The notes beneath the pieces were generated by a model. The model ran no database searches, was not told the origin of the DNA, and was given only the letters and a program-made list of their open reading frames with translations. From Nitrospira sp. (GTDB lineage: Bacteria; Nitrospirota; Nitrospiria; Nitrospirales; Nitrospiraceae): a stretch of 64,000 nt of DNA. Made by a program: the position numbers and the translations under genes. Each line of letters begins with the position of its first letter. Positions within the stretch are counted from its first letter, which is position 1. Below, in pieces: positions 8,518 to 48,272 of this stretch. The stretch is taken from the NCBI GenBank assembly GCA_022226955.1, contig CP092079.1, forward strand, positions 475,217 through 539,216, in the 5' to 3' direction.

Positions 8518-9489
8518 ATGCTGTACGCGCCAGTGTTCAAGCATGGAGAAGGCCCCGAGCGGGAAGGACGGGTATCGGGATGGGTGTGTTCGTGCGTGTT
8601 CCACGGTCTTGCGATCATCGGGGCACTGTATGGGTTGCGCATTCCGTTGTCGCATCCCGAGCCGCCGTTTCGGTGGGAGGTGGCCTTGCGCGAGGCGGTG
8701 TCCGCTCCGATCGAGCCGCCGCGGGAGCTACATGAAGCTGCCGAAGCCGCGCCTGTTTCCGCGGCCCGCGCTGTGGTGAATCGACAGCCTGTCCACCGGG
8801 CGCAAGCCATTGCCCGCCTAGCGGCGCAGCCGTATGAGCAGGCTGTTCCGATGCGAGAGTCCATCGCGCGTACAATCGAATCTCAGGCGGTGGTATCAGA
8901 GCGCGAGCGGCCCGCGGTCGTGCAGGGCAGCGAGGCGGTTGCGCGCGCTTCGGCACAGACTCGCACGGCGTACGAGCGGACGGTCGTGCCGGCATCCTCT
9001 ATCGCTTCTCGCGGGCAAGCGGCCGAGGTCTCTACATCCGTGACTGCCCGGCCTACCGTCGAGAGGCCGCCGGCGATGGCGGCGACTGCGCCGGAGCCGA
9101 TGGAAGTGATGGATCCTCCGCTCGTCGCTGCGCGCTATGCTCCGGTCGAGGAGCGACCGGTCCTCCATACGGAGGCGAGCCACGCGATGCCAGGAGCGCG
9201 AGCGCATTACGGGTGGTTGAAAGAGGCGTTGGCCGGCAAGATCGAGCGCATGAAGCGGTATCCCGACGGCGCCGCCGAGCGGCGGTGGGAAGGCCGTGTC
9301 GTGGTGCGTGGCGTCATCACAGCGGCGGGAGAATTACGAGATCTCGTCATCGCGGAAAGCTCTGGTTTCCAAGCGCTCGACGAGGACGCGGTAGCATTAT
9401 TGCGCCGCATCTCTCCACTCGCGCTTGCGCATCCGCTGGGACAGGCGCAGGTGGCCTGGCGCATCCCGATCACCTATGGCGTCAAATAA
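8518..9489 (+). CDS. tonB: TonB-family energy transducer
   Basis: Periplasm-spanning protein that couples the inner-membrane proton gradient to outer-membrane receptors. The 323 residues contain one N-terminal membrane segment (about 22-44), a long Ala/Pro/Glu/Arg-rich linker, and a C-terminal TonB domain (about 230-320) with MKRYPDGAAERRWEGRVVV and the IAESSGFQALDEDAV motif. No ExbB or ExbD gene lies nearby, so it must use a set encoded elsewhere. It begins nine bases after the receptor stop and its stop overlaps the next start by one base (TAATG). Confidence 0.88.
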   Translation: MLYAPVFKHGEGPEREGRVSGWVCSCVFHGLAIIGALYGLRIPLSHPEPPFRWEVALREAVSAPIEPPRELHEAAEAAPVSAARAVVNRQPVHRAQAIARLAAQPYEQAVPMRESIARTIESQAVVSERERPAVVQGSEAVARASAQTRTAYERTVVPASSIASRGQAAEVSTSVTARPTVERPPAMAATAPEPMEVMDPPLVAARYAPVEERPVLHTEASHAMPGARAHYGWLKEALAGKIERMKRYPDGAAERRWEGRVVVRGVITAAGELRDLVIAESSGFQALDEDAVALLRRISPLALAHPLGQAQVAWRIPITYGVK

Positions 9490-40562: not shown

Positions 40563-41555
40563 CTAACGGATCTGCTCAAGCACGGCCGCGGCCAGGAGCG
40601 GCAACATAATTTCATGATGGCCGGTGAGGGTATAGCCTTTGCCACCTTTTTGGGTGGGGCGCCTCACCACATTGGTCATGGGCCGGTAGTGCGAAAGGAA
40701 ATCCATATTCACGGTGGTGATCTTGGTCAGCGGATGGCCGAGATTGCGTCCGAGCGACACCGTTTTCAGAAACACTTCCGGCAGAATGACGGCCGATCCC
40801 ACATTCAGGTAGACCCCGCCTTCCATCCCAGCGACCACCGCCGCCAGTCGGCGAAAATCGAAGAGGGACGTGGCGCCGATAGCGGCACCGTCGGCGGCGG
40901 GATGCATATGGATGATGTCCGTCCCGATTGCGACATGCACGGTGACGGGAATGCCGAGCCGCGCGCCGGTTGCGAGCAGGCTGGTTGCGCGGTTCGGAAA
41001 CTGGCCTTGATAGCGATTGATGTAGTGTCCGACGGCTTCTCCGAGTCCCTGGTTGTGTTGCGCGCCGAGGACGATGGCCTCGTTCAAGATTCGTCCAGTG
41101 TCTTCGGCCATGCCGAAGCGGCCCTCGTCGATCTCGGCGTCCACTTCTTCCGACGTGTGGCCCATGAGCGCCAGCTCGAAATCGTGGATGATGCCGGCCC
41201 CGTTCATGGCCACGGCAGTGACGATGCCGCGTTCCATCAAATCCACGATGACCGGATTGAGGCCGACTTTGATGACATGGGCGCCGATGCCGACAACGAC
41301 TGGCCGGCGCCGGCGATGGGCCGTCGCGATTGCGGTTGCCACGGCGCGCAGTGTCTTCACGGCCAGTAGATCGGGCAGGGATTCGTAAAACTTCGCGAAC
41401 GATCCTCCACTGGTCCAGGGCCGGGCAAAGTCGGAGACCCGCACTTTGCTGTGACGTTTTTTCAGGGGATAGGTCGTCAGATCCGAGACATCGATCGGAG
41501 GAATCAAGGGGCGCGCGGGGCGTTGCGGGGGAGTCCGGTTAGGGCGCGGTGCCAA
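40563..41555 (-). CDS. Deoxyhypusine-synthase-like protein of unknown role
   Basis: 330 residues, recognised only tentatively. Well-conserved-looking blocks include VVVGIGAHVIKVGLNPVIVD, MNGAGIIHDFELALMGHTSE, HVAIGTDIIHMHPAADGAAIG, LNVGSAVILPEVFLKTVSLGRN and VNMDFLSHYRPMTNVVRRPT. These suggest a Rossmann-type NAD-binding fold resembling deoxyhypusine synthase; bacteria lack eIF5A, so the substrate would differ. It overlaps gmhA by 17 bases on the same strand, pointing to a shared transcript with heptose synthesis. Function is not established. Confidence 0.7.
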   Translation of the reverse strand: MAPRPNRTPPQRPARPLIPPIDVSDLTTYPLKKRHSKVRVSDFARPWTSGGSFAKFYESLPDLLAVKTLRAVATAIATAHRRRRPVVVGIGAHVIKVGLNPVIVDLMERGIVTAVAMNGAGIIHDFELALMGHTSEEVDAEIDEGRFGMAEDTGRILNEAIVLGAQHNQGLGEAVGHYINRYQGQFPNRATSLLATGARLGIPVTVHVAIGTDIIHMHPAADGAAIGATSLFDFRRLAAVVAGMEGGVYLNVGSAVILPEVFLKTVSLGRNLGHPLTKITTVNMDFLSHYRPMTNVVRRPTQKGGKGYTLTGHHEIMLPLLAAAVLEQIR

Positions 41556-43698: not shown

Positions 43699-43727
43699 TT
43701 GATCGCTTGCCGGACCGATGCTATAGT
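43699..43727 (+). promoter_or_regulatory. Sigma70-like promoter of the CARF-like gene
   Basis: TTGATC (43699-43704) and TATAGT (43722-43727) are separated by 17 bases. The start codon at 43737 follows the -10 by nine bases, so the transcript would be leaderless or nearly so. No ribosome binding site is visible. Confidence 0.5.
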
Positions 43728-43736
43728 CCGCGCGCA

Positions 43737-44993
43737 ATGGCGCACGAACAACCCACCAAGGTGCTGCTGGTCGCCTTTACCGGCGATGCGGCGGCGGCCG
43801 TTTCTGTCATCAACCGATTGCAGCCGGAGGCGCTCTGCTTTGTTTTGCCGGAATCGGCAAAGGCGCTGGTGGAGTCGGCGGTCCAACCGCACATTGAGCA
43901 TATGCCCAGGCGCTGGGATTGGGTCTTAGTGGCCGATACGGCCGATGTTGCGGCCTGCCATCACGCATTGGCGGGCGCGCTTCCGGACTTACTAAAGACC
44001 TGGGAAGTGCGCGCCGGCGATTTGGTGCTCGATCTCACCGGCGCGACCCCGGCCATGGCGGGCGCCTTGACGCTCGTGACTTTGCCGACAAGTTCACGCA
44101 CGGTTGCGCTGGCGCCGTGGAATGAGGGGCAGGAGGATGAGCCGATTGTGCTGTCCGGCCGGTCGATGCGCTGGGTGCAAGGCAATCTTTGGGACGACGT
44201 GGCGCTGGTCTCGCGACACGAGGCGGCCGAGCTGTTTAATCGCGGAATGTATGCCGCCGCTGCAAGGCTCTTCCGCGAGATTGAAGCCAGGGTCAGCGGC
44301 GGGCACAAGCCGACCTATCGCGCTTTTGCCGATCTCGCAGAGGGTTACGAATTCTGGGAGCGGTTCCAGTACCGGCAAGCCTGGGACAAGCTGAAGACGG
44401 CTGTGAAGGCCTTGGAGATGGCGTCGTTGTGGGGCGGGCCTCCCGGGTTGAAGGCGGTACTTCCGCCTATCAAAGCCAATGCGGGATTTCTGGAGAAGCT
44501 GGTGTTGGATCCGGCCGATGTCAAAGAGTCGCTGGCGCTGGATGTGCTCGCGCATGCCGGACGCCGGTTGCATGCCGGCCACGATCCGGAGACGGCGATG
44601 ACGGCGCTGGTGCGCGCGCTCGAAGCATTCGCGCAGCGGCTGCTGTTCAAACAGCAGAAGATCAAAACGTGGGACGTTCGCCCCGAACAGCTTCCGCAGT
44701 CGCTTCAGGATATCTGCCGGACTAGCTGGCTGGACGATCTCGACGGCAAATACAAACTGCCGCTGCATGGGCAGTTTCGCGCGCTCGAAGCTTTCGGCGA
44801 TCCGCTCGGCCAAGCTTTTCTGCGCGAGTGGCCGACCATGAAGCCGCTCCTCGATGCCGCCAATCACGGCGTGCTCGGCCACGGCTTTGAGCCGGTCAAG
44901 CCGGAGCGTGTGCAGCAATTGTACGATGTGGTCCTGAAGTTGACCGCCGTCTCTGAGAGCTCCCTGCTGAAATTTCCGACGCTCACGCTCTGA
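43737..44993 (+). CDS. Orphan CARF-like protein (TIGR02710/Cas02710 type)
   Basis: 418 residues. The N-terminal Rossmann-like half (KVLLVAFTGDAAAAVSVINRLQPEALCFVLPES ... LVLDLTGATPAM, Asp99-Met107) resembles CARF domains, whose usual D-x-TGGTK-x-M motif is here altered. A helical second half (FNRGMYAAAARLFREIEARV, GYEFWERFQYRQAWDKL, LVRALEAFAQRLL) recalls the HEPN-like part of TIGR02710 proteins. Near the C-terminus ANHGVLGHGF has the form of the HEPN RN-x5-HG site with Ala375 in place of arginine. No cas gene or array is within the window. Family call by eye; an unrelated Rossmann protein is possible. Confidence 0.65.
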   Translation: MAHEQPTKVLLVAFTGDAAAAVSVINRLQPEALCFVLPESAKALVESAVQPHIEHMPRRWDWVLVADTADVAACHHALAGALPDLLKTWEVRAGDLVLDLTGATPAMAGALTLVTLPTSSRTVALAPWNEGQEDEPIVLSGRSMRWVQGNLWDDVALVSRHEAAELFNRGMYAAAARLFREIEARVSGGHKPTYRAFADLAEGYEFWERFQYRQAWDKLKTAVKALEMASLWGGPPGLKAVLPPIKANAGFLEKLVLDPADVKESLALDVLAHAGRRLHAGHDPETAMTALVRALEAFAQRLLFKQQKIKTWDVRPEQLPQSLQDICRTSWLDDLDGKYKLPLHGQFRALEAFGDPLGQAFLREWPTMKPLLDAANHGVLGHGFEPVKPERVQQLYDVVLKLTAVSESSLLKFPTLTL

Positions 44994-45404
44994 ATGAAAA
45001 TCCAAATTTACTACGAAGACACGGATTGCGGTGGAGTGGTCTACTACGCCAATTACCTGAAATATTTCGAGCGGGCGCGGACGCACTACCTGGAAGAACG
45101 AGGGCTGTCGGTCGCTGGCCTGATGAATGAGGGGACGGTATTTGTGGTGGTGCGTGCCGAACTGGACTATCGGTCCCCCGCACGGTATGGCGATAGGCTG
45201 CTCGTCGATACCGTCGTCTCAGATCTGCGCGCCGCTTCCATGACCTTCGTCCATGTGGTGAAAGAGAAGGCGAGCGGGCGCGTCATCGTGGAAGGGTCCG
45301 CTCGCCTGGTCGCCACGGATGGAAACGGCAAAGTGAAACGCCTCGACAAGGCCGTCGTCGCCGCGCTACAGTCCAGAGCCAGTAAGGAGTCATGGAATGG
45401 ATAA
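44994..45404 (+). CDS. ybgC: YbgC-type acyl-CoA thioesterase
   Basis: Hot-dog-fold thioesterase of 136 residues. The active-site segment YYEDTDCGGVVYYANYLKYFERARTHYL is diagnostic, with the catalytic aspartate in YEDTD. YbgC proteins often accompany Tol-Pal genes, which are not seen here. It starts immediately after the CARF-like stop, and its end overlaps the following small gene by eight bases. Confidence 0.92.
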   Translation: MKIQIYYEDTDCGGVVYYANYLKYFERARTHYLEERGLSVAGLMNEGTVFVVVRAELDYRSPARYGDRLLVDTVVSDLRAASMTFVHVVKEKASGRVIVEGSARLVATDGNGKVKRLDKAVVAALQSRASKESWNG

Positions 45405-45695: not shown

Positions 45696-48101
45696 TCAGG
45701 TTGCTTTAATGCGGAGGTTGCGAAACTGCACGCGCTGGTTGGGATAGGCCTGAAGACCGAGGTAGCTGGGCGTTTTCGCTGTACTGGCGAGGCCGCGTCC
45801 GGCATGCGGATTATTGAATTGTGTGACTTGAACGTCGTTGAGCAGAACGGTATAGCGCTGCCCTTGGACGCGAATTTCATATGCGTTCCACTGGCCGGGA
45901 GGGTTCGCCGGCTGTTGCGAGAGGGCTTGGCCTGGTTCATTGTAAATCGCCCCAGTTTTGTGAATGGCTGCGCCATCGGGCCGGCCAAATTCGTCAATCT
46001 GCACCTCGAAGCCGAAATGCACGCCGACCCATGCGGGATTGAGGTAGCCCTTGCTGTTGGGGTCTGGAAATCGGACAAACACGCCGGAGTTGTCCTGCGG
46101 GCGGAACACGCGCCACTCCAGGCGTAGGGTGTAATCGGCGGGCGTGGGGAGATGAGACCAGAGTAGGCCCAATTCGCCGTTGGGGTCGTTGTTGAAGGAT
46201 TCCAGCGCTCCATCCACGATGTGGAAACCTCCCCCGCCCGTCATGGTCCAGCCTTTGAGACTGTGGCCATTGAATAGTGGCGTGAAACCGGGTTCTGCCA
46301 TGGCATCAGGCGCATCTGGCACCAGTAGGCTGGCAAGACGTCGGGCGAAGGCAATGCCGGTCAGCATCGGATTGGGCGAGCCGATGGTTGGGAATAACGC
46401 GGGGCCGGCGACATAGGCGTTGTCGATGTGATGAAAGCGGCAATCTGTGTTGGTCACAGAGTCATTCGGGTCGGTGCCAATCCAGAGCGTGCCCGTCTCG
46501 TGGTGCGTGGTGCCAAGTCCATCGCGTTTCTTCTCGACGACGACCATTGTGCCGCCATCAGCGAATAGTGTGGCGACGTCGTCAGCGGCCTGATCCATTG
46601 CGTCCCACAAAGCATTATCTTTTGCCGATGGTACGAGGTTAACGAATACGCGCGGCTGACCAAATTCATCGGTCTGCGCGTCGAGGCGGACAAAGCTGTT
46701 TGGGTTGCGCGGCTCCATTTCTCCGATCCCCCGCATGGTAATGACGATGAACTGATCATTTGCCGTGCGCAGCGTAGTGAGTGTGTCCACATCGGGAACT
46801 TTCATAAACAACTCGGCCTCGGAGCTTCCTGTCGGTGTGCTCAGTCCCGACGCGGTGATTTGCAAGTGAAAATGGCCAACTGTGCCATCTGGGTGTGTAT
46901 GGCGCCCCTTCAAGAAGAGGGCGCTGGCCTGCAACTCGCGAACCGCAGCTGGGATACCAAGTGTGCTTCGCGGAATACGAATGGTGTAGTTCGAGCGCAG
47001 GTGCGCCATGAGGTTCGATCCGATGTGCGGCCGGTCAAAGGAGTTTTTCGCCAGCCGAGTGGTCTCGATCGTGCCGAGCGCCACAATGACGACGCCGTTT
47101 TCCGGCACGGCAATGGGGCCGAGATTGGTTTCAACGAGATTGACGAAAGCGTGGTTCTCCTGGCGCGGCGCGGGGGCAACCGGAATGAGCCTTGAGGTGG
47201 TGTCCAAGCGAGCAACATGGCAGTTCGGCACTACCATCAGACGTTTCTTTACATCGTCACCTTGTGATTCGATAGCCGCCGCGCGGGCGGCTTTGACGAG
47301 CAGCGGCACGGCGCTAAATTTGTTTGGCGGAAACGCACCGGAGCGGTCGCGCGTTTTCACCGCCAGCGGTGCTTCCAGCTTGTGTAAATCCTCTTGCCCA
47401 GCAGGAATGCCATCGAGATGCAAATCGAGTTCTCTCAGCGGGATCGCTCCGGCTACCTTGTTTGCGGTGACGCCATCAAAAAGACGCTGGCGCAGGGCAG
47501 TGTGCAGGTCACCGTGGATAAAATCGTTTGTTTCCGTTACGCCAATCTGCTCAGCCGCCTCGCGAAAGTAGCGCATGATGAGGTCACTTTTGACCACGCT
47601 GGGCCAGTGGGTGTCAGGAACCTCGGCTGTGAGCAACTGTGGAGACCAGCCGCCCCAGAACAAGGAACGCTCGCCTACGCAATATGCTAGGCCGGAGAAT
47701 TTCTGCGGTGAATGCCACGCCAGCCCCCAGACGTCCCGGCTCCAATTGCGGAACGCCCGCGCATCGCTGTTCGCCTGCCACTGCTGGATTGTGGCCAGAT
47801 GAATTGGATCCGGCCCGGTGAAACCTGCTAACGGGATGTTCTGAACATGCTCATGCACGGCGAACGGGCCGCCTTCCAACACAAGAATACGATGTACATG
47901 TTCTTTGTCTCGTTCAAACAATGTTGAGGCAAGCGTTGCACCGAATGTGCCGCCGCCCACGATAATGATGTCAAAGGGCTTTGCATCTGAACGTTTGCCG
48001 ACGTCCATACTGGCTCTGGCTTCATCCAGCGTGTTGCAGACATAGCGACCCTCAATGTCGCGCGTAAAGCTCGAAGCTTCAGGGAATTCAGGGGAATTCA
48101 T
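45696..48101 (-). CDS. GMC oxidoreductase fused to a DUF1080 domain
   Basis: 801 residues from ATG 48101 (GGAGAG upstream); a GTG at 48128 is the alternative. Residues 40-590 form an FAD-dependent GMC oxidoreductase: DIIIVGGGTFGATLAS dinucleotide fold, LEGG, GERSLFWGGWSP, and a C-terminal THHETGTLWIG plus FPTIGSPNPMLTGIAFARRLA. Residues about 600-800 are a DUF1080/3-keto-disaccharide-hydrolase-type jelly roll (FTPLFNGHSLKGWTMTG, NSGVFVRFP, WNAYEIRVQGQRYTVLLNDV, VQFRNLRIKAT). No signal peptide is seen. C3-oxidation of a glycoside followed by cleavage is a plausible combined activity. Confidence 0.85.
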   Translation of the reverse strand: MNSPEFPEASSFTRDIEGRYVCNTLDEARASMDVGKRSDAKPFDIIIVGGGTFGATLASTLFERDKEHVHRILVLEGGPFAVHEHVQNIPLAGFTGPDPIHLATIQQWQANSDARAFRNWSRDVWGLAWHSPQKFSGLAYCVGERSLFWGGWSPQLLTAEVPDTHWPSVVKSDLIMRYFREAAEQIGVTETNDFIHGDLHTALRQRLFDGVTANKVAGAIPLRELDLHLDGIPAGQEDLHKLEAPLAVKTRDRSGAFPPNKFSAVPLLVKAARAAAIESQGDDVKKRLMVVPNCHVARLDTTSRLIPVAPAPRQENHAFVNLVETNLGPIAVPENGVVIVALGTIETTRLAKNSFDRPHIGSNLMAHLRSNYTIRIPRSTLGIPAAVRELQASALFLKGRHTHPDGTVGHFHLQITASGLSTPTGSSEAELFMKVPDVDTLTTLRTANDQFIVITMRGIGEMEPRNPNSFVRLDAQTDEFGQPRVFVNLVPSAKDNALWDAMDQAADDVATLFADGGTMVVVEKKRDGLGTTHHETGTLWIGTDPNDSVTNTDCRFHHIDNAYVAGPALFPTIGSPNPMLTGIAFARRLASLLVPDAPDAMAEPGFTPLFNGHSLKGWTMTGGGGFHIVDGALESFNNDPNGELGLLWSHLPTPADYTLRLEWRVFRPQDNSGVFVRFPDPNSKGYLNPAWVGVHFGFEVQIDEFGRPDGAAIHKTGAIYNEPGQALSQQPANPPGQWNAYEIRVQGQRYTVLLNDVQVTQFNNPHAGRGLASTAKTPSYLGLQAYPNQRVQFRNLRIKAT

Positions 48102-48272
48102 GATCGAGACTCTCCTATATTTATTCACCTAGTCATTAAATCTGTTGCTGGTTACTCGTACAATAGCGCATAGGGGAAACCAAGCCCTGAGGTTTTTCCC
48201 GCCCGCTATCGCAACTTTTATGCAGGCTCCCACGACGTGGTAGATTTCTACAGAGGGCGCGGCGATATATCG

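Follow-up and report, generated by a model that had tools for sequence, protein, structure and literature searches.

The locus described here raises the question of what a gene of a CRISPR-linked RNase family does when it stands alone in a chromosome with both of its signature sites altered. The gene lies at 43737..44993 on the forward strand of the window (the whole 64,000-nucleotide stretch of Nitrospira DNA that was analysed), begins with ATG and encodes 418 aa plus a stop codon; its start Met aligns with the start codons of its orthologues. CARF-HEPN proteins are usually interpreted as defence RNases, and a sequence-only reading had placed this one in the TIGR02710/Cas02710-type CARF plus HEPN family, an assignment that our searches bore out. 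The NCBIfam model TIGR02710 matched residues 23-403 with 118 bits (4.5e-34), above the curated NCBI cut-off of 83.9 bits, with intact relatives scoring 166-242 bits; Pfam domains for the Csm6 HEPN and Csm6_6H were also detected. The PADLOC model PDLC01812 (CARF1--CARF_HEPN) fits the protein end to end (5.5e-222), so the group is already represented in the PADLOC defence library. Three domains follow one another on the forward strand: a CARF domain (residues 1-150, 43737..44186; from DSSP of the predicted model and motif tallies), a 6H helical linker domain (residues 151-263, 44187..44525; from Pfam PF22205 and column entropy) and a HEPN domain (residues 264-418, 44526..44990; from Pfam PF09670 and the structure match).

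An AlphaFold2 model, for which 60 aligned orthologues served as input, reached a mean pLDDT of 87.3 and a pTM of 0.78, and the top solved structure retrieved for it by Foldseek was Thermus thermophilus Csm6 (E 2.4e-13); VIA-align placed 382 residues of the two together with a Z of 19.2 and an rmsd of 7.5. Further matches were to other Csm6 proteins over their full length and to many CARF proteins over residues 5-153. The predicted model thus has the CARF-HEPN fold of Csm6/Csx1, and the full-length Csm6 matches rule out an unrelated Rossmann protein, the outcome against which the fold comparison had been set beforehand. At the level of sequence, a single-sequence search of PDB sequences gave nothing useful, and a profile search found the Thermus Csm6 weakly, with its K137 region aligned to P105. 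Thermus thermophilus Csm6 (TTHB152; PDB 5FSH, 8JBB, 8JBC, 8JH1) resembles the window protein in its order of CARF, helical linker and HEPN and in its motif positions, at 18% identity. It differs in that it binds cA4 and cuts RNA, and the K137 and R415 that it requires are Pro and Ala in the window protein.

Both altered motifs were exactly as first quoted. CARF motif II (44031..44057, forward strand, placed by alignment) reads DLTGATPAM from D99 to M107, against an intact form of D[FY]TGGTKxM, and the former HEPN catalytic motif (residues 374-383, 44856..44885, forward strand, likewise by alignment) reads AANHGVLGHG, against [AS]RNxSxLAHG, with Ala375 at the start of the quoted ANHGVLGHG. In order to establish whether these changes are fixed, we built an alignment of 121 orthologues and 15 homologues that fall outside the group, both sites being aligned in 120 of the orthologues. 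Lys at 105 was present in 0 of 120 orthologues and in 15 of 15 outside homologues, and the same counts, 0 of 120 and 15 of 15, were obtained for Arg at 375. The lost lysine, Pro in the window protein, is replaced across the orthologues by Pro (89), Ala (20), Ser (7), Val (4) or Thr (1), and position 103, the second glycine of GGTK, is Ala in 114. Position 375 is Ala in 116 orthologues and Ser, Thr or Val in the other aligned ones, and position 381 has changed from Ala to Gly in all orthologues of the inactivated group. Motif I near strand 1 is lost as well: residues 13-17 of the window protein are AFTGD, the orthologues mostly have A-[LFV]-[TVS]-[DEG]-D, and most of the intact set has S[VI]GG[ST]. 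The ungapped motif blocks of 120 orthologues rule out a single-sequence artefact or a misalignment, and as the changes are fixed across an order the finding is stronger than first stated. There is also no second conserved R-x(4-6)-H in the window protein or its orthologues, which was the other outcome set beforehand as counting against the sequence-only reading; the single near candidate, formed by R276/R277 with H282, was rejected, H282 being present in just 58%. The protein therefore lacks CARF motif I, the motif-II lysine and the HEPN R-x(4-6)-H by which Csm6/Csx1 proteins are recognized.

In Thermus thermophilus Csm6, the K137A mutant no longer binds cA4, and any one of R415A, N416A and H422A is enough to abolish RNase activity (PMC10897365); the R415-N416-(x5)-H422 spacing is that of 375-376-382 in the window protein. 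From this comparison we infer that the window protein has probably lost both cOA binding and RNA cleavage. Some constraint persists at both sites, as D99, T104 and M107 are mostly retained in the inactivated orthologues, His382 is kept in 110 of 120 and N376 in 79 of 120, and G383 is invariant; N376 and H382, like K105 and R375, are present in all 15 outside homologues. This remaining constraint may be structural or may reflect a changed activity. One such activity would be a residual or altered RNase or RNA-binding function using His382 and nearby polar residues, in keeping with the persistence of H382, N376 and G383. There is precedent for HEPN domains without the catalytic motif: one HEPN family without the R keeps the H, and HEPN domains without the polar residues have been proposed to bind nucleic acids (PMC3710099). 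The arginine by itself, however, is essential in T. thermophilus Csm6 (PMC10897365). Several genera of the sister family (members of g9 and g11 among them) have Tyr, Gln, Asn or Gly in place of His382 and yet still carry the gene, and we regard such an activity as unlikely.

The orphan status proposed for the gene was upheld beyond the window. No CRISPR-like repeat array is present in the window, and neither the Cas10 palm, RAMP and Cas1 families nor the SMODS nucleotidyltransferase family (another source of cOA) found a match in the whole 3.64-Mb single-contig genome; the gene is therefore not, as TIGR02710 proteins are described, encoded with or near CRISPR-cas genes. In genomes of families f29 and f34 the homologue does lie within a type III-A locus. 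Two type III-A loci read gene by gene, L178 and L181, contain genes of the Cas10, Csm2, Csm3, Csm4 and Csm5 types (named by reading the sequences) and then the CARF protein. Their TIGR02710/Cas_Cas02710 proteins share the family model and about 24% identity with the window protein, but they stand beside cas genes with DYTGGTK and RNxSxLAHG intact, whereas the window gene is an orphan with neither. Six intact second copies within the window's own order match CRISPR-linked proteins of the f29/f34 type, and at five of these (L072-L075 and L182) a neighbour, a short Cas2-sized ORF, matches the ORF adjoining the CARF gene in L178; L072 additionally has a Cas1-like ORF. The f21 homologues, from a different class of the phylum, are orphans: at L171 and L172 the gene lies between rho/prfA/murA and nadK, and at L173 it adjoins heme genes. 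These f21 orphans (L171-L174) are the nearest relatives of the inactivated proteins, with 38% identity on average and shared GGPPG, W216 and K191, and they too lie away from cas genes at the three loci read; unlike the window protein they keep K105, R375 and H382. Their motifs are intact except for DYTCGTK in L173, and four of five f21 genomes contain Cas10 elsewhere. The relatives suggest a succession of stages, from type III-A locus to intact orphan to inactivated core gene.

Among the 16 genomes that carry an intact homologue Cas10 was found in 13, compared with 3 of 79 relatives with the inactivated form alone (5 of 79 if borderline matches are counted), a contrast with a Fisher value of about 1e-10 to 1e-9 in genomes that are not phylogenetically independent and with an intact set assembled by hand. 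This separation argues against the idea that the inactivated protein still serves antiviral defence, whether as a decoy or as the dominant-negative partner or regulator of type III systems and active Csm6 proteins, and its vertical, syntenic distribution is also unlike that of a patchy defence gene. Three genomes (G048, G088 and G096) do hold the inactivated gene together with an intact TIGR02710 protein and Cas10, and PADLOC lists the family as CARF_HEPN; even so, we consider this role very unlikely. Outside CRISPR loci, CARF genes occur in every CARF family (PMC4012209). VC1899 of Vibrio cholerae (Can2/DUF1887) is likewise an orphan CARF protein with a degraded cA4 site (PMC7969007), and the window protein, whose gene stands apart from CRISPR loci and whose cOA pocket is degraded, belongs with it in this respect. 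The two differ in that VC1899 is a PD-(D/E)xK nuclease that has kept its nuclease residues, whereas the window protein is of the HEPN type and its catalytic residue is gone, a change fixed across the order.

Among 99 relatives a homologue was present in 84, and in 83 of these it is the inactivated form, G039 having the intact type only. In a phylum-wide sample, nearly all members of f1 (the window's family) and f3 carried the inactivated gene, as did some f2 genomes, and it was not found in any of four f4 genomes; Nitrospira moscoviensis and Ca. Nitrospira defluvii are among the named records that carry it. In the tree all inactivated proteins fall into one clade (SH-aLRT 100), within which families f2, f1 and f3 largely separate, with the intact f21 orphans as its sister, a join that likewise has an SH-aLRT of 100. 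A long branch (0.79) leads to the clade and the tree program warned of long branches meeting, which leaves the exact sister group slightly less secure than the monophyly. Pairwise dN/dS had a median of 0.115 (360 pairs with dS 0.1-1.5), indicative of purifying selection. The inactivated gene is a core, vertically inherited gene of the order, a description that applies to f1 and f3 and not to f4. Its near-universality and the dN/dS together rule out a recent pseudogene. A few irregular copies were observed: seemingly broken ones, with frame changes or an inner stop, in three drafts (L082 of G033, L083 of G034, and G398:C18), which may be assembly errors; a second partial copy covering residues 348-418 in G056 (L081, about 8796-9044, forward strand), ∼1.3 kb downstream of the full gene; and two full inactivated copies in the draft genome G095 (G095:C8:1401-2645 and G095:C220:817-2061), from either duplication or strain mixture.

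Upstream of the gene is a promoter-like site, TTGATC-17-TATAGT with an extended -10 TG (43699..43727, forward strand), whose -10 element ends 9 nt before the start codon. We found TGnTAT[AC], nearly always as TGnTATAGT, in the upstream regions of all 125 orthologues compared (102 distinct sequences), with the hexamer ending 6-10 nt before the start codon and at 9 nt in 100 cases; in the window the stretch concerned is 43719-43736. A -10 element so close to the start codon predicts a leaderless mRNA for the inactivated gene, conserved across the order. By reading of the sequences, a comparable -10-like box stands 7-9 nt ahead of the ATG in the f21 orphans, and the CRISPR-linked copies L178 and L181 have a Shine-Dalgarno-like sequence instead. 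As a genome-wide motif, TATAGTC(N5-9)ATG was set aside, as it gave 10 matches against 10 in a reversed control. The shared promoter element, the 54 positions conserved specifically in the clade, the near-universal retention and the dN/dS all speak against the view that the gene is decaying and functionless today, left over from a lost type III system. The seemingly broken draft copies would otherwise lend this view some colour, and we hold it to be extremely improbable.

Column entropies, calculated from 104 sequences under 95% identity, indicate where this selection acts. In the inactivated clade the mean entropy is highest in CARF (1.44 bits), lower in HEPN (1.03) and lowest in 6H (0.96), the most conserved domain, whereas the intact homologues vary most in 6H (1.70); as the two sets differ in divergence, it is the ranks rather than the absolute entropies that are to be compared. 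Motif-I positions 14-17 fall at the 67th-85th entropy percentile of the clade and position 105 at the 54th. The inactivated clade has 54 conserved positions that lack such conservation in the intact homologues, and newly constrained blocks are SGGHKPTYRA (187-196), YRQAWDKLKT (212-221), KALEMASLWG (224-233) and DLDGKYKLPL (334-343). The focus of conservation has thus shifted away from the CARF pocket and onto the 6H and HEPN helices, which argues for a retained function on the helical part, as a binding or scaffold surface, rather than in the old ligand pocket. The nucleotide-sensing role at first envisaged for the protein is accordingly not supported, as the ligand pocket, with motif I and K105/G102 now variable, is the relaxed part. 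As a rival explanation, that idea would have the CARF pocket re-tooled for a different nucleotide or a small metabolite, with the HEPN fold relaying a conformational signal without cutting RNA. The CARF fold is well predicted (pLDDT mostly over 90), conservation persists in the clade at D99, A103, T104, A106 and M107, and RtcR and RV2818, CARF families without the strand-4 lysine, have been proposed to bind other ligands (PMC4012209). Against this stand the variability of motif-I 14-17, the replacement of K105 by P, A, S, V or T and the position of CARF as the least conserved domain, and we judge re-tooling to be somewhat unlikely. RtcR and RV2818 resemble the window protein in having CARF domains mostly without that lysine, and RtcR works outside CRISPR (PMC4012209), but its output domain is a sigma-54 AAA+ domain and not HEPN.

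The stop codon of the gene (44991-44993) is followed directly by the ATG of a 4HBT (hotdog-fold) thioesterase gene (44994..45404, forward strand; Pfam 4HBT_2 2.2e-18), which its locus conservation and co-absence mark as a probable co-transcribed partner. A member of the thioesterase cluster was present at 51 of 56 loci, over three families, and on the same strand as the inactivated gene in all 48 loci where this was measurable; in several Nitrospira genomes 0.1-4 kb separate the two genes. The thioesterase occurs in 78 of 83 relatives with the inactivated gene and in 0 of 16 without it (Fisher p 1.8e-14), a co-absence that in part represents shared missing contigs in drafts. All four f4 genomes also lack the thioesterase, which suggests that the co-absence is real. 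No thioesterase neighbour was seen at the f21 loci L171-L173, which marks the pairing as particular to the inactivated clade. Gene adjacency is not proof of interaction, and we put forward a role for the thioesterase as partner only tentatively.

Other neighbours were rejected as functional leads, as they are not consistent across loci: SPFH/NfeD neighbours occur at f1 loci only, an NtrC-type regulator mainly in f3, and sedoheptulose isomerase-like and sensor-kinase neighbours are common without being constant. An NtrC-type regulator near the orphan gene in G012 (L065 8889-10466, forward strand) starts MNILLTFTGFNDPYSLGLV..., which we take to resemble the CARF-like N-terminus of RtcR-type sigma-54 activators. 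In the window, the ORF at 40563-41555 (reverse strand) has only sub-threshold similarity to deoxyhypusine synthase, and an ORF of this kind adjoins the SIS-domain (sedoheptulose isomerase-like) gene in most loci; at 45696-48128 (reverse strand) a GMC-oxidoreductase-type protein is fused to a C-terminal 3-keto-disaccharide hydrolase domain.

The explanation that best accommodates these observations, to which we assign a probability of roughly 0.7, is that of an inactivated orphan core gene of Csm6 type that now specifies a non-catalytic scaffold or binding protein. The order to which the window belongs would go back to an ancestor with a TIGR02710/Csm6-type RNase ancillary to CRISPR, the gene for which became an orphan in the chromosome. 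Two losses would then have occurred once, at the base of the clade: that of cOA binding (motif I, motif-II lysine) and that of RNase catalysis (HEPN arginine). Purifying selection would since have preserved the inactivated gene as part of the core genome, in most cases right before the hotdog thioesterase gene. The protein, probably dimeric, would contact a partner through a surface on its 6H and HEPN helices, most likely the co-encoded 4HBT thioesterase and otherwise RNA. That it is dead, domesticated and still functional we consider very probable. The sequence-only reading had suggested a domesticated protein without nuclease activity, which the orthologues, the phylogeny, selection and the genome-wide cas searches now back, the last having returned none of the type III genes sought. 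Because both sites were lost while selection on the chromosomal gene remained strong, it was probably recruited for a new job. A bolder form of this explanation is that a complete type III CRISPR effector, sensor and nuclease together, became a housekeeping, non-enzymatic protein in the ancestor of the order to which Nitrospira belongs, and that in nearly all members it now controls or scaffolds the acyl thioesterase encoded next to it or binds a new ligand; this we see as quite possible, if short of probable.

In a partial literature search we found no description of an order-wide core gene in which both Csm6-type halves are inactivated. Here a doubly inactivated, order-wide pseudo-Csm6 is kept under strong selection and its relatives preserve successive stages, whilst annotation models label the gene 'CRISPR-associated' in genomes without a type III system. 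Nitrospira are major nitrifiers, which makes a conserved gene of theirs of practical interest also. These findings render testable the question of what job a CRISPR effector can hold after the loss of both its signal and its catalysis.
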